From contig JAERRP010000916.1 of the NCBI GenBank assembly GCA_016735415.1, positions 1 through 12,653 on the forward strand: a stretch of 12,653 bases of DNA. The letters are read 5' to 3'. The notes below the pieces were generated by a model that was not told where the DNA came from, did not search any database, and saw only the letters and a list, made by a program, of their open reading frames with translations. The position numbers and the translations under genes are program-made. Of this stretch, positions 1 through 12,595 are shown in pieces (within the stretch, counting starts at the first letter, position 1; every line of letters starts with the position of its first letter). The stretch is from Desulfobacterales bacterium (GTDB lineage: Bacteria; Desulfobacterota; Desulfobacteria; Desulfobacterales; UBA5852).

Positions 1-1887
1 GCAGGTAATGCATCGCTCTTCCGTGCGTCTGAAATCGGTGGCCACCGGATGATCAAAATCAAAGTAACCCATCTGAAGGGCGTCGATTTTCATCTGATCC
101 CGGCAGACGCGAATACAATCCCCGCAGCGGCGGCAGATATCACATCGCAGGCACCGGAGCGCCTCTTCGCGGGCCTGGTTTTCCGAGTACCCGAGCTCGG
201 CCTGCTGAAAAGTTGTTCGGCGCCGGTCGATATTCAGCAACGGCATTTCCGGTTTTTTAAGGGACATCTTCGTGGCAGCGGACACTTCAAACCAGGCCGT
301 TCGATCGCGGCGCACCGGGACGGGCGGCATCGTCGGCTGGGGGATACCGGACAGGTAGCGATCGATGGCGTCAGCGGCCTTTTTGCCACCGCCGATGGCT
401 TCAATCACGGTGGCCGGTCCCAGTACGGCGTCGCCGGCGGCGAAGACGCCTTCGATGGAGGTTTCCATGGTCACCCGGTTGATATCGATCGTATCGCGCC
501 GGGTTAAGCGGAGGTCCGCCATCAAGTCCAGCCCGGCGAAATCCACCCGCTGGCCGACAGCGGGGATGACCGAGTCCACTTCCATATGATAATCGCTGCC
601 CTCCACCGGGACGGGACGTTGTCGGCCGCTGGCGTCGGCAACGCCCAGCTTGGCTCTCAGGCAATGCAGTGAGGTGACCGATCCATCCTGGCCTTTGACA
701 CCGACGGGAATGGTTAAAAAGGAAAAGTGAACCCCCTCTTCTTCGGCCTGTTCCACTTCTTCCTCGTCCGCAGGCATTTCCGAGCGGGTTCTCCGATATA
801 CGACCGTAACCTCATCGGATCCCAAACGGACGCAGGTCCGGGCGGCGTCGATGGCCACATTTCCGCCGCCGATGATGGCGACTTTCTTTCCGGGCATGTG
901 TCGTTCGCCCAGGGCGACCTTCCGGAGCAGTTCGATCGCATCGATGACCGCGGGGAAATCTGCCTCGCCCGGGATTCTCAATTGAAAAGCTTTATGCGCG
1001 CCGATGCCGATCAGGAATGCTTCAAACCCTTCCTTGTTCAGCTGCTCAAAGGTAACATCTTTCCCGAAGCGCGTGTTGAAGATAAATTCCACGCCGAGAT
1101 CTTCGATCATGGCCACTTCGCGGTCGATAATTTCCCTCGGAAGCCGGTAGCGCGGAATTCCCACGATCATCATACCCCCGGCAATCGGCAAGGCCTCGAT
1201 GACCCGAACCGCATAGCCCTTAAGCGCCAGATAATAGGCCGCACTGAGTCCGGCGGGGCCCGCCCCGATAACGCAGACTTTCTGATTTTTGGCCGCGGCC
1301 TTGGGGGGGTTTTTATATTTCCTTTCTGAAAGGGCTCTTTCGGCGGCAAAGGCCTTGAGGAACTTGATCGATACCGGTGTGTCGATGCGACCCCGGACAC
1401 ACATGAATTCGCATGGCCGCGTGCAGATCAGCCCGCATATCCAGGGGAAGGGATTATCCTGCCGAATGATATTGATGGCTTCGGCATCTCTTCCCAGTCC
1501 GATCAGGGAAACGTAAGTCGGGATGTCGATGCCGGCCGGGCAGGCCATCTGACACGGCGATGGGGCCAGTTTGATGCAAACCCCGGTAGTGCAGTTATGG
1601 GTATTGATATGGCTTAGGAATACCTCCCGGTGTTTGTGAACGGCGTGCTGAATGCTTTTTCCTATCTCGACCCCGTCGGTATCTGCGCCGATATCCACGA
1701 GTTCCTGAGCCAGGGACTCCAGCGCGTTCAGATGATCGGCGCCGGCGCGGCCCCAGGAGACATCGTGCAGAAGCTGGCGGATCTCCTCGGCAATGCGTCT
1801 GCTCTTCGGTTTGGCCGGACGATTGGAATGCAGGATTCCGTCCAACTGGATCAGTGCGCTGTTTACGGGACACTCGCGACCGGACAT
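1..1887 (-). CDS. GltD/NfnB-like FAD- and NAD(P)-binding iron-sulfur oxidoreductase, C-terminus cut by window edge
   Basis: The reading frame is open from the start to base 1 (629 codons, no stop), so the C-terminus lies outside the window. Of two in-frame ATGs (1893, 1887), 1887 is chosen because GAGGA (1900-1896) sits 8 bases before it. Residues 1-108 resemble a NuoF iron-sulfur domain without its cluster cysteines. Residues 112-163 form the GltD/dihydropyrimidine-dehydrogenase cysteine domain (C112, C116, C151, C155, C159, C163). An FAD Rossmann motif GAGPAG is at 208-213 and an NAD(P) motif GGGNVA at 340-345. The later YRRTRSEMP is typical of NADPH-binding GltD relatives, and the closing FAD motif is FAAGDAVLGPATVIEAI. 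A ferredoxin segment starts at C579 (C579, 582, 585, 588, 591, 595), with C626 and C629 at the edge. It starts 34 bases after the second NuoG-like gene. Likely role: pyridine nucleotide flavin module, possibly bifurcating, of the cluster's complex. The general class is sure; the electron partners are inferred. Confidence 0.9.
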   Translation of the reverse strand, partial: MSGRECPVNSALIQLDGILHSNRPAKPKSRRIAEEIRQLLHDVSWGRAGADHLNALESLAQELVDIGADTDGVEIGKSIQHAVHKHREVFLSHINTHNCTTGVCIKLAPSPCQMACPAGIDIPTYVSLIGLGRDAEAINIIRQDNPFPWICGLICTRPCEFMCVRGRIDTPVSIKFLKAFAAERALSERKYKNPPKAAAKNQKVCVIGAGPAGLSAAYYLALKGYAVRVIEALPIAGGMMIVGIPRYRLPREIIDREVAMIEDLGVEFIFNTRFGKDVTFEQLNKEGFEAFLIGIGAHKAFQLRIPGEADFPAVIDAIELLRKVALGERHMPGKKVAIIGGGNVAIDAARTCVRLGSDEVTVVYRRTRSEMPADEEEVEQAEEEGVHFSFLTIPVGVKGQDGSVTSLHCLRAKLGVADASGRQRPVPVEGSDYHMEVDSVIPAVGQRVDFAGLDLMADLRLTRRDTIDINRVTMETSIEGVFAAGDAVLGPATVIEAIGGGKKAADAIDRYLSGIPQPTMPPVPVRRDRTAWFEVSAATKMSLKKPEMPLLNIDRRRTTFQQAELGYSENQAREEALRCLRCDICRRCGDCIRVCRDQMKIDALQMGYFDFDHPVATDFRRTEERCITC

Positions 1888-1921
1888 GAGCATTTTCCTC
1901 GCTTGGTATTTACGCGAACCC

Positions 1922-2710
1922 TTACGCGTCCGACTTGCCGCCGTAGGTCTTCGGGGGGCGTCTGGCGGTCATCCGATAATTTTGTTTGGCGTACAGCTTG
2001 GCACATGTCGCGCAATGGTGGTGCTCTTCTTTTTCATCCGGATGAGATTCCTCGCGCGCCTTCACGTATTCCAGAAAACGATCGGTGGCATAGTAGCGGC
2101 CGCACATATCGCATCGTTCAAGCGCATGTTGCCCGATGATCACATCCCTGATCTCAATCGTTCTGACATTTTCGCGGTCGTTTAAACGGATGGCGCCGGT
2201 CGGACAGATATTGGCGCAGGTCCCGCATCCGATACAGGCACCGGCTTCGGAGGGGACGACATACTGTACGCCGTCTTTTCTGATCATGGCCAAAGCCTTG
2301 GCCCCGATAATGTCCGAACATACCCGTACACAAAGACGACAGCGGATACAGCCATCGGGTTTCAGCCCCGTCGTCAGTCCGAATTCCTGACCGATTCGAT
2401 GGATCGCTTCGGAATGCGGCGCGAGTTTCAGCAGATTCCCGATGGCCTCATTTCTTAACTTGTGAACCATCGCGCTCTCGGTGGTCACCGACATGGATTC
2501 CTGCACTTTTACCGCACAGGACAAGCGCGTGCGGGGCGGTTTGCTCCCATGCTTGATTTCCACCACGCAGAGTTTACACGAGGCCGCAGGGATAAGCGCC
2601 CGGTGGAAACAAAGGCTTGGAATTTTGAGGCCTTTTTCCTGCAACAGCAGGAGCAGTCGTTGGCCTTCTTCAGCCTCGTGATCTTCACCATTAATTGTTA
2701 TCTTAACCAT
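1922..2710 (-). CDS. NuoG N-terminus-like ferredoxin subunit, second of two paralogs ([2Fe-2S] + 2 [4Fe-4S])
   Basis: This 262-residue protein has no transmembrane segment or signal peptide. The N-terminal ferredoxin fold carries [2Fe-2S] ligands C34, C45, C48 and C65, in the spacing seen in NuoG and iron-only hydrogenases. The His-ligated [4Fe-4S] domain that normally follows is missing: residues 66-120 hold no cysteine. Two [4Fe-4S] motifs follow (C121/124/127/131 and C159/162/165/169). The tail adds CxxC at 200-203 and CxxC at 233-236, preceded by an EEHHH stretch, which could bind zinc or another cluster. GGGGAG lies 8 bases before the ATG. It follows its paralog after 44 bases and precedes the GltD-like gene by 34. 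Known relatives act as electron wires between flavin and catalytic subunits (NuoG, HydA, HndD, formate dehydrogenase N-termini); here that domain stands alone. The wire role is inferred. Confidence 0.9.
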   Translation of the reverse strand: MVKITINGEDHEAEEGQRLLLLLQEKGLKIPSLCFHRALIPAASCKLCVVEIKHGSKPPRTRLSCAVKVQESMSVTTESAMVHKLRNEAIGNLLKLAPHSEAIHRIGQEFGLTTGLKPDGCIRCRLCVRVCSDIIGAKALAMIRKDGVQYVVPSEAGACIGCGTCANICPTGAIRLNDRENVRTIEIRDVIIGQHALERCDMCGRYYATDRFLEYVKAREESHPDEKEEHHHCATCAKLYAKQNYRMTARRPPKTYGGKSDA

Positions 2711-2754
2711 GGCCGTGTCTCCCCGCGGTTATGCCCCCATCGATCCGGATGCCT

Positions 2755-3558
2755 TCACCAACCCCTGAAGGGCGTTTTGCCAAAGTCGGTCCTGATCGGC
2801 CGGGGCACCTCGATCTTCTTTACGCACTCGGGGCAAATGCTGTCGACAAGATTGAGGCCTTTGGGCTTGTAAGCTTTTTCATTGATGCGCTCCAGGTATT
2901 TCCTGGGCGCAAAGGGGCGACCGCATTTCTTGCAGGGTTCGAGGGTGAAGCGGGACAAGACCTGCCCCCACGTGTATATCTTTCTTTCATTGCCGCGATC
3001 CTCGATCCGAATTGCGCCCGTGGGACATACCTGGGCACAGGCGCCGCATCCGATGCAATACTCGGAAAGCCGCTCGAAATCGGTGGCAATTTTCCGTTTA
3101 TGGCCGCGGTTGACCCAACAAAGGGCATATACTCCGATTTTCTCCCGGCAGACCCGGACGCAGCGGCCGCAACGGATGCAGTCGTCCGCTTCGCCGGTGC
3201 GGAAGCGGCTGGTGACCACACCCAATTTCCCCGCCAGATCGATAAGTTCTCTGGAATAAGGCGCACGTCCGAGAAGCAGTTCCAGGAGCAATCGGCGATT
3301 TTTTTTGATTCGCTCGGTATCGGTTTCCACCACCAGGCCTTCCTTGACTTCCTGGATACAGGAAACCCGGATAGAAGGCCGGATCGAACCGCTGATATCC
3401 ACGATGCAGAGTCGGCAGCTTCCCTCGGGCTCCAAGGCTTCGTGATAGCAGAGGGTCGGAATATAAATTTCTTCCTGCCTGGCAGCTTCCAACACCGTCA
3501 TGCCGCGGGGCGCTTGGATTTCTTGTCCGTTTATCGTGAGATTGACCAGCTCCGGCAT
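2755..3558 (-). CDS. NuoG N-terminus-like ferredoxin subunit, first of two paralogs ([2Fe-2S] + 2 [4Fe-4S])
   Basis: This protein has 267 residues from ATG 3558, which has AGGTGG five bases upstream. An in-frame GTG at 3567 is possible but overlaps that Shine-Dalgarno sequence. [2Fe-2S] ligands are C37, C48, C51 and C67. As in its neighbour, no cysteines lie between 68 and 126, so the His-ligated NuoG cluster is absent. [4Fe-4S] motifs are C127/130/133/137 (with a stray C147) and C168/171/174/178. A tail with CxxC at 209-212 and CxxC at 242-245 is shared with the downstream paralog, which argues for duplication of the whole gene rather than a domain. The gene starts 9 bases past the NuoF-like stop codon, so translational coupling is likely. 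No membrane segment is seen. It probably carries electrons between the NuoF-like flavin site and another subunit. Which paralog contacts which partner cannot be told from sequence. Confidence 0.9.
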   Translation of the reverse strand: MPELVNLTINGQEIQAPRGMTVLEAARQEEIYIPTLCYHEALEPEGSCRLCIVDISGSIRPSIRVSCIQEVKEGLVVETDTERIKKNRRLLLELLLGRAPYSRELIDLAGKLGVVTSRFRTGEADDCIRCGRCVRVCREKIGVYALCWVNRGHKRKIATDFERLSEYCIGCGACAQVCPTGAIRIEDRGNERKIYTWGQVLSRFTLEPCKKCGRPFAPRKYLERINEKAYKPKGLNLVDSICPECVKKIEVPRPIRTDFGKTPFRGW

Positions 3559-3567
3559 GTTGTCCAC

Positions 3568-5349
3568 CTACCCTTTGAGAACTGCTGAAAATTTGCATTT
3601 TTCATAGCAAACGCGGCATCGGACGCACTTATCCTGGTCGATATGATGAGCGCTCTTTTTTTCACCGCTGATGGCGCCGACCGGACAATTGCGCGCACAG
3701 ACCGTGCAGCCGGTGCAAAGGGCCTCATCGATCGTAAAAGTGGTAAGGGCCTTGCACCCGCCCGCCGGGCATCGCTTCTGGTGAATATGGGTCTCGTATT
3801 CGTCACGGAAATACTGCAGGGTGGACCGGACCGGATTCGGCGCGGATTTTCCCAGCGCACAAAGGGAGGTGTCCTCAAGTACCTCTGAGAGTTCCTCTAA
3901 CAAAGTAATATGCTCCGGCGTCCCATGGCCTTCCGTGATCTCGGTCAGCAACCGAACCATCTGGGGGATACCGTCCCGACAGGGGGTGCACTGGCCGCAG
4001 CTTTCCTCCATACAGAAGGTAAGAAAGTATTTGGCCATATCCACCATGCAGGTATCCTCGTCCATAACGATCATGCCGCCGGAGCCCATCATCGAACCGG
4101 CCTCCGCAAGATGCTCATAATCAACCGGCATATCCAACAGGCTGGCCGGGATGCACCCGCCCGAGGGCCCGCCGGTTTGTACCGCCTTGAACGCTTTTTT
4201 ATTCGGAATGCCGCCGCCGATATCAAAAATGATTTCGCGCAGGGGAATCCCCATGGGGACTTCCACCAGACCGGTGTTGTTGATCTTGCCCACCAGGGAG
4301 AAAATCTTGGTGCCTTTGCTTTTTTCGGTGCCAATGCTGCGATACCATTTGGCGCCCTTTCCAATGATCAAAGGCACGTTGGCCCATGTTTCGACGTTGT
4401 TCAGACAACTGGGCTTGCCCCACAACCCGCGATCGGTGGTATGGACATATTTCGGACGCGGCTCGCCGGCTTTGTCTTCGATGGAGGTCATCAGGGCCGT
4501 GGATTCTCCGCACACAAAGGCCCCCGCGCCCAGAACGACCTTGATGTCGAATTCAAAATCGGTCCCAAAAATTTTGCTCCCCAGAAAGTTCCGCTGGCGG
4601 GCCTGGTCGAGCGCCATTCGCAAACGATTGACGGCCAGTGGATATTCAGCCCGGATATAGATGTAACCGGTCGAAGACCCCATGGCATGTGCACCGATCA
4701 TCATCCCCTCGATGATCGCATGCGCATTGCCCTCGACGATGGAGCGATCCATGAAAGCCCCCGGGTCGCCCTCGTCGGCATTGCACAGAACATACTTGGG
4801 CTTGCCGTAAGCCCGCCGGCAGCTTTCCCACTTCACGCCCGTGGGAAATCCGCCCCCCCCGCGACCCCGCAATCCGGAGTCCTTGATAATCCGGATGATC
4901 TCCTCGGGATCCAGGGCCAACGCCCGGCGGGCCGACTGGTAGCCTCCGGCCGCCAGATATTCCTCGATGGACTCGGGATCGATTCGGCCGCATTGCGCCA
5001 GCACGAGCTTCTGCTGCTTGGCATGGAAGGCCCGATAGTCGTCCTGTACCAGCCATTTTTTAACGGGCTCGCCGCCGATGATATGTTCATCAACGATCTT
5101 TTTTACTTTTTGGGGGGTAACCAGCTGGTAGGTTTCGGTCTTACCGTTGATACGGACATCCACCAGGACGTCTTTGGCACAGAAGCCCCGGCATCCCACC
5201 TTGTGCGTTCGTGCCGGGTAGGATGCCTTCAGCCCGCTTTCTGCCAGCATTTCCTGAAAAGAGGCGATGACTTTGTAACCCCCGGCCGCCACGCCGCCGG
5301 TTCCGGTGCAGATGCTGATGATGATTTCCGCGGTGTCCTTCTCATCCAT
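3568..5349 (-). CDS. NuoF-like FMN/NAD(P)H dehydrogenase subunit with C-terminal 2x[4Fe-4S] domain
   Basis: 593 residues, with the layout of HndC/HydB-type NuoF proteins. Residues 1-90 are a thioredoxin-like [2Fe-2S] domain with C14, C53 and C57, but Gly19 sits where the second cysteine of Cx4C is expected. The FMN and nucleotide region has the glycine-rich GLRGRGGGGFPTG (159-171), CNADEGDPGAF (189-199) and GAGAFVCGESTAL (274-286), where NuoF normally has GEETAL. The N3-type [4Fe-4S] cluster uses C451, C454, C457 and C497. After C527 and C532, two ferredoxin motifs follow (C545/548/551/555 and C575/578/581/585). AAGG lies 8 bases before the ATG, and the nuoE-like gene ends 24 bases upstream. 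The expected role is to oxidise or reduce NAD(P)H at FMN and pass electrons to the cluster chain in a soluble complex. Cofactor choice is uncertain because of Ser283. The family is clear. Confidence 0.95.
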   Translation of the reverse strand: MDEKDTAEIIISICTGTGGVAAGGYKVIASFQEMLAESGLKASYPARTHKVGCRGFCAKDVLVDVRINGKTETYQLVTPQKVKKIVDEHIIGGEPVKKWLVQDDYRAFHAKQQKLVLAQCGRIDPESIEEYLAAGGYQSARRALALDPEEIIRIIKDSGLRGRGGGGFPTGVKWESCRRAYGKPKYVLCNADEGDPGAFMDRSIVEGNAHAIIEGMMIGAHAMGSSTGYIYIRAEYPLAVNRLRMALDQARQRNFLGSKIFGTDFEFDIKVVLGAGAFVCGESTALMTSIEDKAGEPRPKYVHTTDRGLWGKPSCLNNVETWANVPLIIGKGAKWYRSIGTEKSKGTKIFSLVGKINNTGLVEVPMGIPLREIIFDIGGGIPNKKAFKAVQTGGPSGGCIPASLLDMPVDYEHLAEAGSMMGSGGMIVMDEDTCMVDMAKYFLTFCMEESCGQCTPCRDGIPQMVRLLTEITEGHGTPEHITLLEELSEVLEDTSLCALGKSAPNPVRSTLQYFRDEYETHIHQKRCPAGGCKALTTFTIDEALCTGCTVCARNCPVGAISGEKKSAHHIDQDKCVRCRVCYEKCKFSAVLKG

Positions 5350-5373
5350 TCTGAAGACCTTTTAGGTGGGCGG

Positions 5374-5826
5374 CTATTTATAGCCGGATAGAATTTTACT
5401 GATCTGCTTGGGCGTCACCTTGCCGTGGGTATCCTCATTTACAACAACAACCGGTGCCAGACTGCATGCGCCGATACAGCGAACTTCTTCAAGGCAAAAA
5501 GTCATATCATCCGTGCTTTCGCCCGGATTGATATGAAGCACGCGCTCCATTTCATTTATCAATATTTCAGCACCCTTGACATGGCAGGCCGTGCCGGAAC
5601 AGACACACACCTCGTGTTTGCCTTTGGGTTTCAGACTGAACCGATTGTAGAAATGGGCGATGCTGTAAATCTGGGTGATGGGGATGCCTGTCTTCTTGGA
5701 GACGTACCGCAGCTCTTCTTCGGGCAGGTAATGAAAATGATTCTGAACTTCGTGGAGAATGCCGATAAGATTGCCTTTTACTTCCGGAAAACGATCCAGG
5801 ATCGTATTTATTACCGCAACATCCAT
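5374..5826 (-). CDS. NuoE-like [2Fe-2S] thioredoxin-fold subunit
   Basis: The protein has 150 residues from ATG 5826, or 153 from an in-frame ATG at 5835. The inner start is preferred because AAGGA lies 8 bases before it, while the outer ATG overlaps that site. In 153-residue numbering, an N-terminal helical domain contains the family phrase Y57-S-I-A-H-F-Y63, followed by a thioredoxin-like fold with C79-x4-C84 and C120-x3-C124, the four [2Fe-2S] ligands of the NuoE/HndA/HydC family. The length is normal for the family. It lies 24 bases before the NuoF-like gene, the usual nuoE-nuoF order. In bifurcating hydrogenases, formate dehydrogenases and complex I this subunit packs on NuoF and carries the off-path N1a-type cluster. 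It probably does the same here. No sign of truncation. Confidence 0.93.
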   Translation of the reverse strand: MDVAVINTILDRFPEVKGNLIGILHEVQNHFHYLPEEELRYVSKKTGIPITQIYSIAHFYNRFSLKPKGKHEVCVCSGTACHVKGAEILINEMERVLHINPGESTDDMTFCLEEVRCIGACSLAPVVVVNEDTHGKVTPKQISKILSGYK

Positions 5827-5942
5827 TATTCGCATCCTTATTTAGTGCCCATCCAACCGAACGGTTTGTCTCGAGATTATCCATCCTGCTCCCGGTCTGC
5901 TGTTCATAACATCTATCGAAGCGCTCTTGATAAACCCGGAAA

Positions 5943-6464
5943 TCATTCCAGATGCGCCGCGCCCTTGGTTGATGCCATGGCGCGGGCATAACGTTCCCTT
6001 TTTACCACGGGCATTTCTTCTGTTTTCCCAAAACGGAGACAGTGGGTCAGGCAGATGGTCACACAGGCCGGTTTGAGTCCGGCGTCAATCCGGTCCATGC
6101 AATAATCGCATTTCACCACCTTGCCGATTTCTGCATTCCACTGGGGCGCGCCCCACGGGCAGGCGGAAATGCAAGTCTTGCATCCGACACACAGGTTGTG
6201 ATCCACAAAGACGATGCCGTCCTTTTCCCTGCGCTGCATGGCACCCGTGGGGCAAGCGGACACACACCAGGGGTTTTCACAGTGAAAACAAGGCATGAAA
6301 ATATACGAGGCGCGGGGTTTTCCATTGAAAAACTTGGGTCCAACCGTAATGATTTGGCAGGGTCTTGTTCCCGGCGGCAAGCCCTTGTTGCTCTTGCATA
6401 CGATCTCGCATGAATGACAGCCAATGCATTTTTGCTGGTCCTGCAACATGAAATACTTGCTCAT
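5943..6464 (-). CDS. Four-cluster [4Fe-4S] ferredoxin subunit, DmsB/PsrB/PhsB type
   Basis: 173 residues with 16 cysteines in four ferredoxin-type groups: C13/16/19/23, C59/62/67/71, C92/95/98/102, and C119/122 with C134/138. By the rule for DmsB, PsrB and FdnH, these pair to ligate four [4Fe-4S] clusters. C36 is extra. There is no Tat signal and no C-terminal membrane helix, unlike respiratory versions such as FdnH. GGAGG lies 6 bases before the start. It follows the molybdopterin subunit by 76 bases, the order seen in psrAB and phsAB, but no NrfD/PsrC membrane subunit follows. It should wire the Mo/W subunit to the NuoEF-like module. A 116-base gap separates it from the nuoE-like gene, with no clear promoter or terminator in it. 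Confidence 0.93.
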   Translation of the reverse strand: MSKYFMLQDQQKCIGCHSCEIVCKSNKGLPPGTRPCQIITVGPKFFNGKPRASYIFMPCFHCENPWCVSACPTGAMQRREKDGIVFVDHNLCVGCKTCISACPWGAPQWNAEIGKVVKCDYCMDRIDAGLKPACVTICLTHCLRFGKTEEMPVVKRERYARAMASTKGAAHLE

Positions 6465-6540
6465 TATCTCCCTCCAGATATGATTTGCGATTGACTATCC
6501 ATGGATCCTCATCCCCTGGTCAACCGCCTTCAATACTCAC

Positions 6541-8625
6541 TTAGGCCGCTTTAACCGTAACAAATGTATCATGAAAGGCCGGGCTTCCACCGACACGGTC
6601 CGTGATGTTTTCCTGCAGCACGCTGTCTGAAATGCCCTTGTTGTAGCAGCGCGCGGCCAGTTTGGCTTCATGCCCGAAGCCATGTACCATGAAGACGGCT
6701 TCCGGATGAATCATATCGGTCACGTAGGCTTTGAGGACTCCCGTACCGACTTTGGAGTTCAGCTCCACCAGGTCGTTTGTTTTGATGCCCAGGGCGGCCG
6801 CCTTGGCGGTGTTGATCCAGAGGGCATTTTCCGGAAAGAGTTCGTTCAGATAGGGAACGTTCTGGGTGGAAACGTGGGTATGCAGCGCCACCCGGCCCAC
6901 CACCAGACGAAAGACATCGTCCTGGCCTTCCGGCACCGGCTTATAAGCGGAAAAGGATTCCAAACCGATGTCTTCCAGAAGCGATGATTTGAACTCGATT
7001 TTGCCGGAGGGCGTTTTGAAGTTTATCCCATCCTTGCGTTCCCAGAAAATCTGGTCATGGCCATAGGCCACAAATCCCTTGGCTTCGAAATCCTGCATCG
7101 TAAAGCCGGTGCCCTCCAGCTGCCAGTTCACGAGATCGTCCATGGTCTCGTAAGGGAAATATTGCCCGATCTCGAGCCGCTCGGCGAGCTTTTTCATGAT
7201 CACGGAATACTCGAGGGTGTCGTACCGGGGTTCGACCGCCTGACGGCGCAGGAACATCTGGGGCTTGAGGCCGTTGGCCTGTTGCACGCTGTCGGTTCGT
7301 TCAAAGTAGGTGGACTCGGGCAGGATCACATCGGCGTACCAGGCCAGGTCGCTGTAGTTGATGTCGACGGCCACGATCAGATCCAGCTTTTCCAGGGCCC
7401 GCTTCATCTGGTTTGTGTCGGCGATCGATTTCAGTGGATCGAAACGATTGATGATCACGGCTTTGATCGGGTAGGGGTCCTCGTTCAAAATAGCCGGGCC
7501 CAGCATCTGGGGAACACCGTGGGCACCATCCGGTAATGGAAATTCCGGCGTGCCCACTTTATCAAATCGCATTTTGTCGATTTTGGGCAATTCCTGTTCC
7601 GTCAGTTTGCGGGCCGGTTTGCCACCGGCCGCGCCGGGGCCCTTTTTGAAAAACAAACCGCCCGGTGCTTCCACGGTACCCATCAGGGAATTCAGGATCA
7701 GGATGGATCGCCGCAGATAAATCTCATAGTCATGGTGGGCACCCCGATAGCCGTAATGGAAAATCACGGCGGGCTTGACCGCGCTGACCTCACGGGCCAG
7801 GGTCGTGATTTCGGCCGCCGGGATCCCGGTTTCCTTCTCGGCCCACTCGGGTGAATAGCTTCGCACGAAGTCCTGGAGTTCGACGAGCCCGGTGACCCAG
7901 CGGTGAACGTACCCGGCGTCGTAAAGCCTTTCCTTTAAAATGACATGAATAAGGGCGTAGTTGAGCGCCAGATCAGTGCCGGGACGGATCATCCAATAGC
8001 GATGGGCTTTGGTGGCGGTGACCGTCACGCGGGGATCGATGTAGGTCATCTGCGCACCGTTTTCGAGGGCTGTGGTCAGGTTGTTGACCTCTTTGACCGA
8101 CACGGCCTCGAAAATATTCCGGCCGTAAAGGATGATGTGTTTGGTGTTTTTATAATCCATCCCCATCTGGCTGTCGGTGTAGCCGAACATGGTTCGGCAG
8201 GCCGTGTTGACGGACCCTTTGCACAACGCATCGTGCGTAAAATGGTTGGGTGACCGGATGGCTTTCATGAATGTCTTGCTGACGTGGGTGGCCAGGTTGG
8301 TGCGTTCCCCCAGGACCACACTATGCCCGCCATGGGTGTCGATAACAGCTTTCAGTTTTTCGGCCACATAATCGAGGGCCTCGTCCCATGAGGCCTTGCG
8401 CCATTTCCCTTCGCCCCGTTTGCCTTCACGAATCATAGGGCTCTGTACGCGCTGGGCGTCGTACTGCATCGAAATCCCAGCGGCCCCCCTGGGACACAGG
8501 CTGCCTTCCATCCCGGCAACATGAGGATTGCCTTCCAACCATTTCACCTGCCCGTTTTTAACCTCCACCCGGATCGGGCACCGTACCGAGCACATGAAAC
8601 AGAGGCTGTAAATCGATTGCGTCAT
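6541..8625 (-). CDS. Molybdopterin (Mo/W-bisPGD) oxidoreductase catalytic subunit, PsrA/PhsA-like, cytoplasmic, substrate unknown
   Basis: This 694-residue member of the DMSO reductase superfamily opens with the N-terminal [4Fe-4S] motif C9-x2-C12-x3-C16-x27-C44, followed by P45-R46-G47. The catalytic and first dinucleotide-binding domains cover about 60-470, including YGRNIFEA, IDPRVTVTATKA and IRPGTDLAL. The C-terminal molybdopterin dinucleotide domain lies at about 575-690. The likely metal ligand is Cys135 in FTHDALCKGSVN; it is followed by Lys, where formate dehydrogenases have Sec/Cys-His. This places the enzyme nearer polysulfide/thiosulfate reductases than formate dehydrogenases. No twin-arginine signal precedes the first cluster, so the enzyme stays in the cytoplasm. 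A strong GGGAGGGG lies before the ATG. It is the first gene of the redox block and sits behind a candidate sigma-54 promoter. Reduction of a sulfur, arsenic or organic substrate is possible; I cannot choose among these. Confidence 0.93.
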   Translation of the reverse strand: MTQSIYSLCFMCSVRCPIRVEVKNGQVKWLEGNPHVAGMEGSLCPRGAAGISMQYDAQRVQSPMIREGKRGEGKWRKASWDEALDYVAEKLKAVIDTHGGHSVVLGERTNLATHVSKTFMKAIRSPNHFTHDALCKGSVNTACRTMFGYTDSQMGMDYKNTKHIILYGRNIFEAVSVKEVNNLTTALENGAQMTYIDPRVTVTATKAHRYWMIRPGTDLALNYALIHVILKERLYDAGYVHRWVTGLVELQDFVRSYSPEWAEKETGIPAAEITTLAREVSAVKPAVIFHYGYRGAHHDYEIYLRRSILILNSLMGTVEAPGGLFFKKGPGAAGGKPARKLTEQELPKIDKMRFDKVGTPEFPLPDGAHGVPQMLGPAILNEDPYPIKAVIINRFDPLKSIADTNQMKRALEKLDLIVAVDINYSDLAWYADVILPESTYFERTDSVQQANGLKPQMFLRRQAVEPRYDTLEYSVIMKKLAERLEIGQYFPYETMDDLVNWQLEGTGFTMQDFEAKGFVAYGHDQIFWERKDGINFKTPSGKIEFKSSLLEDIGLESFSAYKPVPEGQDDVFRLVVGRVALHTHVSTQNVPYLNELFPENALWINTAKAAALGIKTNDLVELNSKVGTGVLKAYVTDMIHPEAVFMVHGFGHEAKLAARCYNKGISDSVLQENITDRVGGSPAFHDTFVTVKAA

Positions 8626-8701
8626 GCTTCCCCTCCCAATTATAAAGAAAACGATAAGTTGCTTTGGCAGACATCATGGTGAGATACCCTGCGCGGTCAG
8701 C

Positions 8702-8717
8702 GATGACCAGATGACCA
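8702..8717 (-). repeat. Tandem 8-base direct repeat in the leader of the molybdopterin gene
   Basis: TGGTCATCTGGTCATC on the minus strand is two perfect 8-base copies. It lies about 25 bases downstream of the candidate sigma-54 promoter and 77 bases before the start codon. It could be a regulator or RNA-binding site, but chance is possible for a repeat this short. Confidence 0.4.
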
Positions 8718-8739
8718 AATCAAACAGCGGAGAAAATGC

Positions 8740-8762
8740 TGCAATTTGCATACCATTTGCCA
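8740..8762 (-). promoter_or_regulatory. Candidate sigma-54 (-24/-12) promoter, two overlapping registers
   Basis: On the minus strand TGGTATGCAAATTGCA (8755-8740) has GG-N10-GC spacing and a perfect TTGCA -12 element. A second register seven bases upstream, TGGCAAATGGTATGCA (8762-8747), also has GG-N10-GC and a perfect TGGCA -24 element. Either would start transcription near 8735-8728, leaving a leader of about 100 bases before the molybdopterin gene at 8625. Sigma-54 control would need an enhancer-binding protein, and none is encoded in this window. The call rests on consensus matching alone. Confidence 0.45.
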
Positions 8763-8883
8763 CAAGACGTTGAAGGGATTCCGCCTGCCGTGTTTCAAGG
8801 CGATAATATCAAGTAAATCCATCGGATAAGTCAATTAAAAAAAAGGCTGGCGTACCTGAATAAAGGCCTCAAATCGCTTTGGC

Positions 8884-8917
8884 GAAAAGGGGACCGCCAG
8901 TTTTTTCTGGCGGTGCC
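8884..8917 (-). terminator. Rho-independent terminator after cbiO
   Basis: A perfect 8-base inverted repeat (ACCGCCAG 8893-8900, CTGGCGGT 8907-8914) encloses a six-base loop and extends by two further pairs past a one-base bulge. Read on the minus strand, the stem is followed by CCCCTTTT. It sits 58 bases after the cbiO stop codon. The T run is short, so termination may be partial; a second T8 run lies about 40 bases further down at 8844-8837. Confidence 0.6.
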
Positions 8918-8974
8918 AGATAAAAATGGCGCACTCACAAGGTTGATGGGCTTGTAATGGCAGGTGTTCCAGGT

Positions 8975-9712
8975 CTATTTGTGCTGGTGCGGTACCTGGC
9001 CGTGGCGGTGGGCATGCAAATGTTCATGGAAATGGATTTCCTCATCCATCAGGATACGGCCGTCCTCCATGGAGTAAGTCTTGTCGGTCGTCGCGGAAAG
9101 GAACCGCGCATTGTGGGAAATGAGAACATAGGCTAAATCTAAATTGCCGATCAGATGCGTCAGCGTGTGGCGGGTCTGATCGTCCAGGCCGGTGGCGGGC
9201 TCGTCCAGCAGCAGAACCTCGGGTTCCATGGCCAGAATGGTCGCCAGCGAAACCAGCCGTTTCTCTCCCCCGGACAATCGAAAGGTGATGCGCTCCTCGA
9301 ATCCTTCCAGGCCCAGTCTTGCCAGGGTGCGGCGGGCGATGCTCTCAGCCTCCTCACGGGATTTTCCCAGGTTCAGAGGACCGAAGGCCACATCTTCCAG
9401 CACGGTAGGGCTGAAAAGCTGATCATCGGCATCCTGAAACAGCATGCCGATACGCTGCCGGACCTTGATGAAATCCTGCTCCCGGCGAACCGGACGTCCA
9501 AAAATACGCAGTTCTCCGGCACAGGGTTTCAGCAACCCCATGATAATGTGAAACAAGGTCGTCTTACCGCTGCCGTTGGGGGCCACCAGTCCCACCCGCT
9601 CACCGGGGTAAAGATCGAAATCCAGGTTATTCAGAATATCGGGTCTGTCCGGGTAACCGAAGTCGATGCCGCGCAGGGAAATGATGGGGGCTGTTTTTTT
9701 GCCGGGTTCCAA
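8975..9712 (-). CDS. cbiO: Cobalt ECF transporter ATPase CbiO with histidine-rich C-terminus
   Basis: 245-residue ABC ATPase. The start is TTG at 9712, five bases after GAGAGG; no ATG fits the family's N-terminus. Walker A is APNGSGKT (44-51), the Q-loop is near FQDADDQLF (92-100), the signature is LSGGEKR (146-152), Walker B is LLLDEP (167-172), and an H-loop histidine follows in LISHN. The phrase DDQLFSPTV is typical of ECF-transporter ATPases of the CbiO/EcfA group. The last 23 residues contain eight histidines, likely a metal-binding or sensing tail. It is the last gene of the cobalt operon, 9 bases after cbiK, and is followed by a terminator. It would power Co2+ (or Ni2+) import together with CbiM and CbiQ. 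Cobalt is favoured because cbiK is in the operon. Confidence 0.94.
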   Translation of the reverse strand: MEPGKKTAPIISLRGIDFGYPDRPDILNNLDFDLYPGERVGLVAPNGSGKTTLFHIIMGLLKPCAGELRIFGRPVRREQDFIKVRQRIGMLFQDADDQLFSPTVLEDVAFGPLNLGKSREEAESIARRTLARLGLEGFEERITFRLSGGEKRLVSLATILAMEPEVLLLDEPATGLDDQTRHTLTHLIGNLDLAYVLISHNARFLSATTDKTYSMEDGRILMDEEIHFHEHLHAHRHGQVPHQHK

Positions 9713-9721
9713 GGATGCCTC

Positions 9722-10510
9722 TCAATCCAGTTTAAGGGGCCGGCCGGCCAGGGCCGCCCTGATATGGCGGCCGAAGATATCGATTATCGCCGATTGAACC
9801 CCCAGGCCGTCGGCTTCCGGGATGACGCGCAATCCCTGCTTTTCAAACCGGGATTGCCAGGAAGTCGGCTGATCACCGCTGATATCCTGCCTGAAATGGG
9901 CACCGGCCACCAGCATGAACGGTCTCAGTCTCGCCCGGCGGCACCCTGTGGCCCCAAGCTGGGCCGCAATGACGGACGGTCCAGGGTCGCCCTTGACCTG
10001 ACCCAGAACAACCCGGTCGCCGAAGCGTGCCGCTATACCCCCGGCCAGGACCGCATAAGCCATCCAGGCGGGATGATCCGTCCCGTGGCCCACGAAAACC
10101 AGCGCGTCTTCTTCCGTCGGTGGTCGCAGCTTTTCGATCCAGTCCAGGACGGCATCGAAATCTTCCGGGTGCGAAAGAAGCGGCAGGCCGAGATGCACAT
10201 CAAGGGGGCTTTGGGCCGCCTTCCAGACCAGGCCGTGAAATTCAAGCCCGCAGATCAGATGAAGCGATTGGACCACCGCTTTGCGACAGCCCGCCCGGGC
10301 CAGTTGGTCGAGAACCGTTGCGGGGGTCGCCAGCGCCTGACCTGTTTCTTCGCGCCGTCGGTTGCGGATGGCGCCTGAAGAAAAGGCCCAGTGGATCGGG
10401 TGTCCCGGAAAATGCCGGCCGCATTCCGCCTCAATCCAACGGTAGGTGGCGGATGCCGCGCTCGACGTTCCGGATGCCACCAGGACAATCGGTGTTTGAT
10501 CGGCTGCCAT
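9722..10510 (-). CDS. cbiK: Sirohydrochlorin cobaltochelatase, anaerobic CbiK type
   Basis: 262 residues, close to Salmonella CbiK length. It would insert Co2+ into sirohydrochlorin, an early step of anaerobic cobalamin synthesis. The N-terminal PIVLVASGTSS is the chelatase family opening. Candidate catalytic and metal-binding residues are His142 in FVGHGTDH and His205 in LVAGAHFRQD, with Glu90 in the LEFHG segment; these match the paired histidines known in CbiK. Family members I recall have GDH before the second histidine, whereas this one has GAH (Ala204). There is no signal peptide, so it resembles the cytoplasmic CbiK form rather than the periplasmic haem-binding form of Desulfovibrio. 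The ATG at 10510 has no clear Shine-Dalgarno, and no better in-frame start exists upstream. It lies between cbiQ (48-base gap) and cbiO (9-base gap), which links uptake to insertion. Confidence 0.88.
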   Translation of the reverse strand: MAADQTPIVLVASGTSSAASATYRWIEAECGRHFPGHPIHWAFSSGAIRNRRREETGQALATPATVLDQLARAGCRKAVVQSLHLICGLEFHGLVWKAAQSPLDVHLGLPLLSHPEDFDAVLDWIEKLRPPTEEDALVFVGHGTDHPAWMAYAVLAGGIAARFGDRVVLGQVKGDPGPSVIAAQLGATGCRRARLRPFMLVAGAHFRQDISGDQPTSWQSRFEKQGLRVIPEADGLGVQSAIIDIFGRHIRAALAGRPLKLD

Positions 10511-10558
10511 GGATTCGGGGTTCGCTTTCGATGTTTTGTCACGGCCGTGGGAAATGGT

Positions 10559-11311
10559 TCAGCAGATCCATTCCAGCCCGAGCAGGACGATCATAGCAGA
10601 TGCGGCCGTGAGCGCAAACCACCGATTGACGGGATGGGCCGGAAACCTCGCCAGTGAATGAAAGCGGCCGTTGAATCCGCGGCAGCGCATGGCCTGGTAC
10701 ACCCGATCGGCCCGGGCCGCGGCCCTCACAAAGAGTATGCCCACCAGGTAGGCATAGCTGCGGTAGGTGTGCAGACTGGTTCGCGGATTGAACCCCCTGA
10801 TTTTCATGGCCGTACTCAAACGACGGTATTCCTGTTCGATAACAAAGATATATCGATAGCACATCAACAGCAGATAAACGAGTTTGGCCGGAACGCGCAG
10901 GCGGCCCAGGGCCTGGCCCAATGTGGTGACGGGGATGGTGGCCACAAGGGCCGTGAAAACGGCGATAATGGCCATGGATTTCAGAGTGATGTGGGCTGAG
11001 AGCACAATGCCCGGCCAATAAAAGTTGAGAGGTCCCAGCTTCCCGACGGCTTCTCCTTCGTAGGTCAGCGGCAGCAGCAGCCACAACATCAGCAGAAAAC
11101 CCAGAACCACGGCCAGCCGCTTGCCGATCTCCCGGATATCCAAGCCTGACAGAAGCAGCAGCGCCAAAGCGGGCACGCAGGCAGCCATCAGGGCGGTAAA
11201 CGAATGGAAAACCGCCACGGCGCACGAGAAGAAGGCGGCGGCCACGATTCTCAGCCGGGGATCGATGCGGTGCAGAAAAGAATCACGGGGCGCCTGGAGT
11301 TCCGTAATCAT
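10559..11311 (-). CDS. cbiQ: Cobalt ECF transporter transmembrane (T) component CbiQ
   Basis: 250 residues, rich in hydrophobic segments (about 22-60, 65-85, 100-130, and one at the C-terminus). The cytoplasmic coupling region carries the two short arginine motifs of T components: AMKIRGF, and about 40 residues later AMRCRGF, each of which contacts an ATPase subunit. The N-terminal HRIDPRLRIV is typical of CbiQ. The start codon lies 4 bases after the stop of the NikL-like gene, with no strong ribosome-binding site of its own, so coupled translation is likely. It would transmit ATP-driven movements from CbiO to CbiM during cobalt import. Confidence 0.93.
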   Translation of the reverse strand: MITELQAPRDSFLHRIDPRLRIVAAAFFSCAVAVFHSFTALMAACVPALALLLLSGLDIREIGKRLAVVLGFLLMLWLLLPLTYEGEAVGKLGPLNFYWPGIVLSAHITLKSMAIIAVFTALVATIPVTTLGQALGRLRVPAKLVYLLLMCYRYIFVIEQEYRRLSTAMKIRGFNPRTSLHTYRSYAYLVGILFVRAAARADRVYQAMRCRGFNGRFHSLARFPAHPVNRWFALTAASAMIVLLGLEWIC

Positions 11312-11315
11312 GGGG

Positions 11316-11957
11316 TTATCCGGACTTCCGACGGGAGTGGATATAGGCCCCCAGGCCGACCAGACCGAGGATGTACCCGATGCCGCCGATAATGTCGCTC
11401 AGGGAGGGCCCCGGCTCGAACTGCCGCAGGCGTTGCTGGATGGGCGCCAGTTTCTTGTCCAGCGACTGCTCGATCAGGGCCTGGAGGGCGGCCGGTGACA
11501 GCGTGACGGTCTCGGCGGGTTTTCCCGCTGCGGCCATCGGTTTGGGCGGCGCTGTTTCCGGCCAGGGTTCGGTTGGGGACGGTGCCACCGTCGGACCATC
11601 CGCGAATTCTTTGGCGTAAACCGTCCATTCGTTACGGTGGCCGGATCCCGCCATCAACACAATCCGCAGGGTTTCAGAACGCGGCGGCTTGAAGGCGAAG
11701 CGACCTTGGTCGTCGGTCCGGCCTTCCAGCAGCTTTTCACCCGCGGCATTGTACACGTCGATGCGGCCGTCCCGGGCGTAGCGCCCCCCGCTGAACTTGC
11801 TTTCCGTGAAAACGGTATCGCCCTGCACCCAGGCGAATACCATGACCTTATGAGCCCTGGCCGCGGCCGGCATCAAAACCAGCAGGAGGGCCAAGCCCCC
11901 CCAAAGACGGCCAGATCCGCGCAGCCAGTGGTTGATTGTCTTCACATGACCTTTCAT
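11316..11957 (-). CDS. NikL/CbiL-type accessory protein of the cobalt/nickel ECF transporter
   Basis: 213 residues. An N-terminal signal peptide (arginines at 13 and 17, hydrophobic core 19-30, ARA at 33-35) would be cleaved to expose His36 as the first residue of AHKVMVFAWVQG. This is typical of NikL-like proteins, where the exposed N-terminal histidine region is thought to help bind metal. A beta-rich extracytoplasmic domain (about 36-118) resembles those with carboxypeptidase-regulatory folds. Then come a proline-rich linker (about 119-147), a helical stretch (157-181), and a C-terminal membrane helix (about 188-206) ending in RRKSG. The ATG overlaps the cbiM stop as ATGA and has AAGGGA six bases upstream. 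It probably replaces the CbiN subunit in metal capture. Not to be confused with the methyltransferase also named CbiL. Confidence 0.85.
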   Translation of the reverse strand: MKGHVKTINHWLRGSGRLWGGLALLLVLMPAAARAHKVMVFAWVQGDTVFTESKFSGGRYARDGRIDVYNAAGEKLLEGRTDDQGRFAFKPPRSETLRIVLMAGSGHRNEWTVYAKEFADGPTVAPSPTEPWPETAPPKPMAAAGKPAETVTLSPAALQALIEQSLDKKLAPIQQRLRQFEPGPSLSDIIGGIGYILGLVGLGAYIHSRRKSG

Positions 11958-12595
11958 GCTTCATCCCTTTCGACCCCTGTCGACGGTGCCGGCCTCGCCA
12001 GACCGGGCAGCAGATCCGGCTGAACCTGACGGAAAAAAGCGACACAGAAAACCGTGATCACTCCTTCGATTACCATGACCGGGATGTGCGCCGTGATAAT
12101 CAGCAGGGTGACTTCCAGAAAATTTTCTTCTGTGAACATCAGGGCGCCACCGGTGATAACCGCCCCCAGGAGGATGCTGAAAAACCCGCAGGCAAAGGCG
12201 GCCGGGAGGGCAATTTCGCGGCGGCGGCCCACCAGCGGACCGAAAAGATAAAAGCAGACCACCGCCGGGGCTGCCATGATCAGGGTGTTAATCCCCAGGG
12301 TGGTCAGTCCTCCATACTGAAACAATAGGGCCTGCAGCAGAAGCGCCACCACGATTGTCGGGAACGCCCCCCATCCCAGCATCAGCCCGACAATTCCATT
12401 CAAAATCAAATGAACGCTGGAGGGGCCGATGGGCACGTGAATCAGCGAGGCCACGAAAAAGGCGGCGGCCAGCAGACCGGCTCGGGCGATGCGGTCGTAA
12501 TCCAGCTTTTTAAGACCCACCGCCGTGCCGGCCACCGCCAGGGCGCCGCCGGTAAGGAGTACGGGGCCCGAAAGGACTCCTTCGGAAATGTGCAT
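11954..12595 (-). CDS. cbiM: Cobalt ECF transporter substrate-binding membrane (S) component CbiM
   Basis: 213 residues, mostly membrane helices. The N-terminus MHISEGVL holds the family's metal-binding His2; further conserved residues appear in HVPIGPSSVH (His53 and His62) and in the NG after it. GGAGA lies nine bases before the ATG. It is the first gene of the cobalt block in this window and overlaps the next gene by 4 bases. CbiM binds Co2+ directly and determines specificity; NikM relatives bind Ni2+ with nearly the same residues, so the metal is assigned from the cbiK neighbour. Only 58 bases upstream are visible, so a cobalamin riboswitch or promoter cannot be judged. Confidence 0.93.
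   Translation of the reverse strand: MHISEGVLSGPVLLTGGALAVAGTAVGLKKLDYDRIARAGLLAAAFFVASLIHVPIGPSSVHLILNGIVGLMLGWGAFPTIVVALLLQALLFQYGGLTTLGINTLIMAAPAVVCFYLFGPLVGRRREIALPAAFACGFFSILLGAVITGGALMFTEENFLEVTLLIITAHIPVMVIEGVITVFCVAFFRQVQPDLLPGLARPAPSTGVERDEA

Follow-up and report, generated by a model that had tools for sequence, protein, structure and literature searches.

Organization of the operon

The sequence analysed here (the window) is a stretch of 12,653 nucleotides from a Desulfobacterales bacterium, probably a sulfate reducer (contig JAERRP010000916.1), in which seven genes, designated A, B, E, F, G1, G2 and GltD, form an operon for a molybdopterin enzyme and electron-transfer proteins. 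All seven are on the minus strand without internal stops, co-oriented and tightly packed, the gaps in the order A-B-E-F-G1-G2-GltD being 76, 107, 24, 0, 44 and 28 nt as calculated from the coordinates:

6541..8625, minus strand: A, PhsA/PsrA-like molybdopterin catalytic subunit, 694 aa
5943..6464, minus strand: B, four-cluster PsrB/DmsB-like ferredoxin that occupies the BfuS position and is of the cassette-locus type
5374..5835, minus strand: E, NuoE/BfuC-like [2Fe-2S] subunit (PF01257)
3568..5349, minus strand: F, predicted HydB/StnB/BfuB-type FMN-NADH-ferredoxin subunit, 593 aa
2755..3567, minus strand: G1, BfuA-like ferredoxin with a 2Fe-2S motif, two 4Fe-4S motifs and a C-terminal CxxC...CxxC but no additional catalytic domain
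1922..2710, minus strand: G2, another HoxU/NuoG-N-like ferredoxin, which goes with the GltD-like protein
1..1893, minus strand: GltD/StnC-like FAD-NADPH flavoprotein, truncated where the contig ends (about 720 aa in relatives)

For comparison, 98 loci were assembled from the best 80 of 210 relatives found in a genome scan plus 20 regions chosen from 54 genomes with A matches among 297 searched, minus two duplicate contigs (L133 = L036 and L138 = L072), both of which are still in the trees and in the row counts of conserved residues. The loci are related and their counts not independent; genes were taken from the longest open reading frames (ORFs) and BLAST labels, with rough starts and overlaps. 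In all, 3621 proteins matched A at E <= 1e-30 (7995 candidates scored). The 80 scanned loci, the best of the 210, were mostly from Desulfobacterota/deltaproteobacteria, with a few labelled just Proteobacteria. Among the 297 genomes, all from the phylum of Desulfosarcina widdelii, 27 had A matches above 1110 bits and 27 more had matches of 770-866 bits. Among these lower-scoring matches, that of G239 is a fragment with 75% identity to the window A, which places it in the family proper.

Protein A carries the Pfam domains PF00384, PF01568 and PF04879, and its closest solved relative is PsrA (PDB 2vpw, 428.7 bits; the runner-up scored 222.9). In a 15-row alignment, two invariant residues, C135 and R294, align with PsrA C173 and R332, which we take to be the Mo ligand and the active-site Arg, respectively. 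Formate dehydrogenase, considered as an identity for A, was ruled out: the score against that family was 257.1 bits (NCBIfam cut-off 666.25), the residue after the metal ligand is Lys (CK) where formate dehydrogenase chain 7bkb_D has His (CH), and A is far nearer to PsrA. No signal peptide was seen on A by eye, judged without a predictor; its first Cys motif begins at residue 9, as in 58/100 loci, the remainder having longer longest-ORF starts. Protein B has DmsB/PsrB-type domains, with 2vpw_B as its best PDB match and 9mqx_E as another, and its 16 Cys are kept in 99/99 rows.

The GltD-like flavoprotein consists of Fer4_20 and Pyr_redox_2 domains. Its K180 corresponds to StnC K170, a ligand of the proximal 4Fe-4S cluster, and this Lys, the Arg equivalent to StnC R239 and the NADPH-type RR pair are each present in 75/75 rows. 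G2, with Fer2_4 and 4Fe-4S domains, keeps 16 Cys in 46/46 rows.

These results agree with much of the initial annotation, made from the window letters, which had described a seven-gene operon without a membrane anchor (borne out by the ORFs and by Pfam and NCBIfam domains), a PsrA/PhsA-like catalytic subunit unlike formate dehydrogenase (upheld by family scores and alignment), a four-cluster wire now recognized in B, a GltD-like flavoprotein of the bifurcating-transhydrogenase kind, for which the StnC-like Lys ligand speaks, and NuoEF proteins suggestive of a bifurcating or confurcating enzyme, matched by the Bfu-type residues of F and E. It had also named the pair NuoE and NuoF; the domain of E fits this, while F is not a plain NuoF but of the HydB/StnB type with extra parts. 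In Pfam searches, no gene for an NrfD/PsrC-type membrane anchor was present among the seven genes of the window, whose contig ends inside GltD, and Rfam and tRNA scans of the window gave no matches. No paper describing this operon was found in one open-licence literature library, where main-text papers were mostly judged by their listing or by passages.

The E-F-G1 cassette

Four Cys of E (79, 84, 120 and 124) are kept in 14/14 rows. F has a thioredoxin-like N-terminal part, the domains PF01512, SLBB (PF10531), PF10589 and a C-terminal Fer4 (PF00037), and two C-terminal 4Fe-4S motifs; the SLBB score of 22.3 bits is under the cut-off of 27, and Pfam entries were substituted for the InterPro entries named in PMC9304861. 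Its best PDB matches were 7t2r_B and 9bov_B. The ligands of the B2 [2Fe-2S] cluster are present in F (C434, T472, H521, C527 and C532), with the His in 11/11 F rows; by the criteria in section 6 of PMC9304861, this His is absent from non-bifurcating homologues. The criteria of Losey for bifurcating beta subunits, as given in section 17 of PMC7311640, are A/E232, M234, F367, GGPSG and extra Fe-S domains. The counterparts in F, A198, M200, F350 and GGPSG, were found in 11, 10, 11 and 11 of 11 rows, respectively, positions being matched by motif and GGPSG being counted by its first and last G. G1 contains Fer2_4 (PF13510) and Fer4 families, is closest to BfuA of the electron-bifurcating tungsten enzyme and aligns over its length to Wor-Bfu chain 9mqx_A. 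By its sequence, the E-F-G1 cassette is thus a member of the Bfu family (HydABC/Stn/Wor), and with the B and A genes directly before E-F-G1 it shows the separate S and L subunits of Bfu Type 2, a type whose BfuA also lacks clusters A3 and A5.

In 10 of the 12 genomes of loci with a cassette-type B, the operon copies of F are 74-82% identical to the window F, and the remaining F-like genes of those 12 genomes are at most 62% identical to it. One of the other two (G307, locus L035) has a 50% F match alone, a contig end having truncated the operon copy there, and the other (G311, locus L015) had no F match at E <= 1e-100. Because the operon copies stand apart from the other F-like genes of the same genomes, F is taken to be a dedicated paralogue.

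Gene order among relatives

We found B directly after A in 91/96 loci by an automatic filter, and the other five do have B. GltD, or a GltD fusion, lay within 9 kb in 58/60 loci with at least 7.5 kb downstream, the misses being L072 and L076. E and F occurred in 12/98 loci (10/82 among those with at least 3 kb downstream) and, in 11 of the 12, directly followed A-B. One locus, L012, has the same seven genes as the window in identical order, so that the cassette operon does not depend on the window; L012, L028, L037, L038, L045 and L055, each with at least 5.5 kb downstream, have both the cassette and GltD, and in L037 and L045 GltD is found upstream of A. L038 and L055 each have a pair of B genes, of which one precedes the cassette and the other GltD. 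In L015, B-G2-GltD stand in the window order and E-F-G1 is missing as a block. Since G1 accompanies E-F in 10/11 loci and G2 accompanies GltD in 42/44 (the other two stop at a contig edge), the presence of two ferredoxins is explained. Locus L078 has a diverged E-F-G1-GltD on the opposite strand beside A-B, a possible case of a Bfu unit joining this enzyme independently.

Judging by gene order in the 98 loci, the core consists of A-B-GltD(-G2), with E-F-G1 as an optional extra, and the association of NuoEF with this molybdoenzyme is a recurring yet optional arrangement, mostly of one lineage. The initial annotation had posited a single obligatory seven-gene complex, had proposed a search for conserved co-occurrence and had named regular separation of the molybdopterin and ferredoxin genes from the nuoEF-like genes as evidence to the contrary. 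That separation is what the loci display, with E and F in just 12/98 (10/82 with sufficient downstream sequence), and an obligatory complex is thereby ruled out.

The same counts raise the alternative of two enzymes in one operon, namely an NADPH-linked A-B-G2-GltD and a stand-alone E-F-G1 NADH-ferredoxin unit serving another partner. The absence of E-F-G1 from most loci, its loss as a block in L015, the opposite-strand arrangement in L078 and the near restriction of the cassette to one A lineage are all in its favour, but the unbroken row A-B-E-F in 11/12 loci, the occurrence of A-B-E-F-G1 without GltD in L076, the two B genes of L038 and L055, which suit two electron inputs, and the status of F as a dedicated paralogue make this explanation unlikely, if far from negligible.

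Deeper members of the family have, behind A-B, a degenerate NuoF fused to a GltD/StnC-like flavoprotein, in ORFs of 1131-1231 aa (L121, L122, L123, L125, L126 and L135; that of L120 is cut). The degenerate NuoF has lost its FMN and NADH loops but keeps the B2-type ligands in five or six of the six ORFs. In a sister family, an RnfC-like protein of FMN/NADH type directly follows A-B (in L142 and after the first A-B pair of L018). A-B thus appears with several nucleotide-type modules.

L122:9840-13235 and L125:11518-15213: NuoF-GltD fusion ORFs
L142:6504-8000 and L018:2735-4150: RnfC-like protein

Phylogeny of A and B

Trees were quick searches with support from the Shimodaira-Hasegawa-like approximate likelihood ratio test (SH-aLRT) only, and the groups for the approximately unbiased (AU) test were chosen with the B tree already in view. 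In the B tree, 13 B proteins of cassette loci (one contig counted twice) and three others form a group of 16 (SH-aLRT 91), and the window B sits in a 14-row part of it (SH-aLRT 95). In the A tree, the window A groups with L001-L005 (SH-aLRT 97), where no cassette was seen (L002 and L003 are short contigs). The window A is 85% identical to that of L001, and 98% over the last 56 residues; the window B is 68% identical to that of L001 and 91% to that of L013. The break is at the A|B border, and the spacer there, compared by eye, has no long run of identity to either parental type.

The AU test rejected a single clade of all A proteins accompanied by a cassette-type B (p 0.0031, log-likelihood difference 181) and likewise rejected the window A among the cassette A proteins with L037 and L045 left free (p 4.5e-5). 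Constrained to one group, the cassette-type A proteins other than the window outscored the free tree (p-AU 0.71), and they were also acceptable as one clade once the window was left out of the data altogether (p-AU 0.54). A second module swap, hinted at for L037 and L045 by the quick A tree, was not borne out by these values.

The mismatch, which rests on one contig, may reflect a swap of the whole electron module behind the catalytic subunit or a chimeric contig. The window is, by appearance, one metagenome contig, in which A and its cbi neighbours match the cassette-less L001-L005 and B matches the cassette loci, and the lack of a second confirmed independent case weakens the swap and strengthens the chimera. 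The spacer, unlike either parental type by eye, speaks against an assembly artefact, and the AU rejections (p 0.0031 and 4.5e-5) fit swap or chimera alike. On balance we regard an assembly chimera as improbable.

Proposed function

We tentatively propose that the operon encodes a soluble NADPH-linked reductase of the thiosulfate/polysulfide type to which some lineages have added a confurcating core for NADH and ferredoxin, a reading that comes close to an even call. A-B would be a soluble, cytoplasmic PsrA/PhsA-type reductase of sulfur compounds, ordinarily supplied from NADPH through the FAD and Fe-S clusters of the GltD/StnC-like flavoprotein, then G2 and B, to Mo. In the minority that includes the window, the Bfu cassette (E as BfuC, F as BfuB and G1 as BfuA) would be placed behind B, so that electrons of NADH and reduced ferredoxin merge at FMN and Fe-S clusters into electrons of about -400 mV, which would then pass through G1 and B to Mo. 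In the reverse direction, the enzyme would reduce NAD+ and ferredoxin. We infer the single physical complex, the direction of flow and thiosulfate (or polysulfide) as the substrate.

Potentials given in passages of PMC9304861 are about -280 mV for NADH, -380 mV for NADPH, -500 mV for ferredoxin and about -400 mV for merged electrons. A passage of PMC4215793 puts thiosulfate reduction by H2 at -4 kJ/mol, which by arithmetic places the thiosulfate couple near -393 mV. For reduction of thiosulfate to sulfide and sulfite, NADH alone would be too weak and out of reach of the requirement, NADPH would be borderline, and NADH plus ferredoxin fits, merged electrons being at about what is needed. Because of this fit, thiosulfate-type chemistry is favoured with moderate confidence.

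Several observations weigh against this reading. The best NCBIfam match of A, PhsA (NF012032), scores 608.8 bits, below the curated cut-off of 694, and F retains three of the four Cys (C14, C53 and C57) of the N-terminal (B5) cluster, as the NfnABC chains 9bov_B and 9n5u_B likewise do in the alignment. GltD is not required beside the cassette, as seen in L076, and L015, L053 and L057 have a cassette-type B without E-F; given the p-AU values of 0.71 and 0.54, the match between B type and cassette outside the window may simply reflect common ancestry and not a fit between the parts. TauE was found neither in the window, where 4 kb upstream of A is seen, nor near A in L001, L004 and L005. That GltD and E-F share one particle is, like the chemistry, a prediction from the genes.

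In its fullest form, our proposal would make the system an electron-confurcating cytoplasmic thiosulfate reductase, that is, a Bfu enzyme with a sulfur oxyanion as third substrate and a second port for NADPH, whose Mo site is poised at about -400 mV by NADH, NADPH and ferredoxin and whose electron module may, in the window, have been swapped; this form is fairly improbable. If true, sulfur compounds would join the third substrates of the Bfu bifurcating family, and sulfate reducers would gain a soluble way of meeting the energy cost of thiosulfate reduction, a reaction with a marginal yield from H2 and uphill when driven by NADH. The reverse run, from sulfide and sulfite to thiosulfate, would make reduced ferredoxin and provide a soluble energy-coupling step for sulfur disproportionation. 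The loci also offer naturally paired enzymes whose catalytic subunits are related and of which one has the bifurcating core and the other lacks it, a contrast that could show what the core adds.

Neighbouring genes and regulation

A TauE/SafE permease lies within 6 kb in 42/54 loci having 6 kb on both sides, compared with a chance expectation of about 0.02 TauE per locus (arithmetic from 70 TauE matches, 67 of them over the cut-off, in 47.5 Mb and about 14 kb per locus, the nine genomes used having been chosen because they hold A). Two types occur, a long one in 27 loci and a short one in 41, with either in 67/98. Neighbours of the coenzyme A (CoA)-disulfide-reductase or lipoamide-dehydrogenase type are present in 7/98 loci; of two that were scanned, that of L131 is a CoA-disulfide-reductase type fused to rhodanese and that of L124 is lipoamide-dehydrogenase-like. 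The TauE family has a substrate range wider than sulfite. Thermotoga maritima NSR is described in a passage of PMC9431562 as an NAD(P)H polysulfide reductase that can also act as a thiosulfate reductase, and the L131 protein may be kin to it.

These neighbours bear on whether the same architecture might serve another substrate of A, such as sulfite, tetrathionate, an organosulfur compound or another oxyanion, reduced or oxidised. A PsrA-type sequence leaves the substrate unfixed, and TauE is a sulfite exporter according to a passage of PMC3949148; PsrA is, however, the best match by a wide margin, CoA-disulfide-reductase-like neighbours are found in some loci and the -400 mV logic fits thiosulfate, so we consider another substrate possible, if on the doubtful side.

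Small membrane genes stand alongside TauE (u219, u123 or u143 in 23/27 of the long type, u196 in 38/41 of the short type), and small membrane-type proteins travelling with the TauE permease or a histidine kinase include L122:6305-6895, L019:6414-7073, L019:5845-6336 and L037:7757-8128; u196, u219 and u163 had no Pfam match. The long TauE/SafE permease (L019:7120-8889 and relatives) is 72-92% identical among nine loci, its conserved N-terminal region of about 250 residues had no Pfam match at E <= 1e-5, and its structure model was poor (mean predicted local distance difference test score 60.1). A small conserved protein of about 70-100 aa, u89 (L037:7394-7663 and others), follows GltD in 57/98 loci and is possibly an assembly factor.

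A sigma-54 regulator was labelled together with an AtoSC-like histidine kinase in 44/98 loci, and the best sigma-54-like sites before A had a mean of 2.2 mismatches vs 3.3 in simple letter shuffles (95 upstream regions), which is suggestive of sigma-54 control of A operons. A phosphonate-type periplasmic binding protein (L122:1873-2838) adjoins the regulators, with ORFs of similar length at the same place in L123 and L126. Upstream of A, the window contains:

8626..8974, minus strand: region preceding A, containing a weak sigma-54-like site of two mismatches (suggestive)
8975-12595: nickel/cobalt energy-coupling factor transporter (CbiM, NikL, CbiQ, CbiO) with an embedded CbiK-like chelatase

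A functional link to this transporter was ruled out, as cbiM, cbiQ or cbiK were labelled only in L001-L005.

Comparison with known systems

A close parallel is Wor-Bfu (BfuABCSL, PDB 9mqx), described from Acetomicrobium mobile in PMC9304861, with which the window shares a five-part plan of catalytic L, ferredoxin S, BfuA, BfuB and BfuC, and whose chains include homologues of G1 and B. Its catalytic subunit is, however, a tungsten aldehyde oxidoreductase, whereas the window A belongs to the dimethyl sulfoxide (DMSO)-reductase family (PsrA/PhsA type), and GltD and G2 are extras of the window. A molybdopterin-family catalytic subunit on a Bfu core is known from Fdh-Bfu (FdhF2-HylABC) of Gottschalkia acidurici (passages of PMC6085437; section 5 of PMC9304861), but that is a formate enzyme and the window A is far nearer to PsrA. 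A PsrA/PhsA module is not named in the main text of PMC9304861, in which the strings thiosulfate, polysulfide and molybd nowhere occur, although an open clade there may already hold it.

Stn/Nfn-Bfu (StnABC, PDB 8oh5; NfnABC, 9bov) combines, like the window, a NuoEF-type core with a GltD-like NADPH domain having the Lys ligand. Those enzymes lack a molybdenum-type catalytic subunit and carry GltD inside the BfuA chain, whereas in the window G1, G2 and GltD are separate genes and GltD is mainly tied to A-B. The AegA/YgfT family, in which a B-like ferredoxin is fused to GltD, gave NCBIfam matches to both B and GltD, which are separate in the window, and we know of no dedicated PhsA-like subunit for it.

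Finally, the PsrABC/PhsABC enzymes provide, in chains A and B of PDB 2vpw, the closest matches to the window A and B; unlike them, the window system has no membrane anchor among its seven genes and no signal peptide by eye, and it would be fed by nucleotides rather than by quinol. Read from its sequence, the system seems to put a known energy-coupling machine, the core of electron-bifurcating hydrogenases, to a new use.

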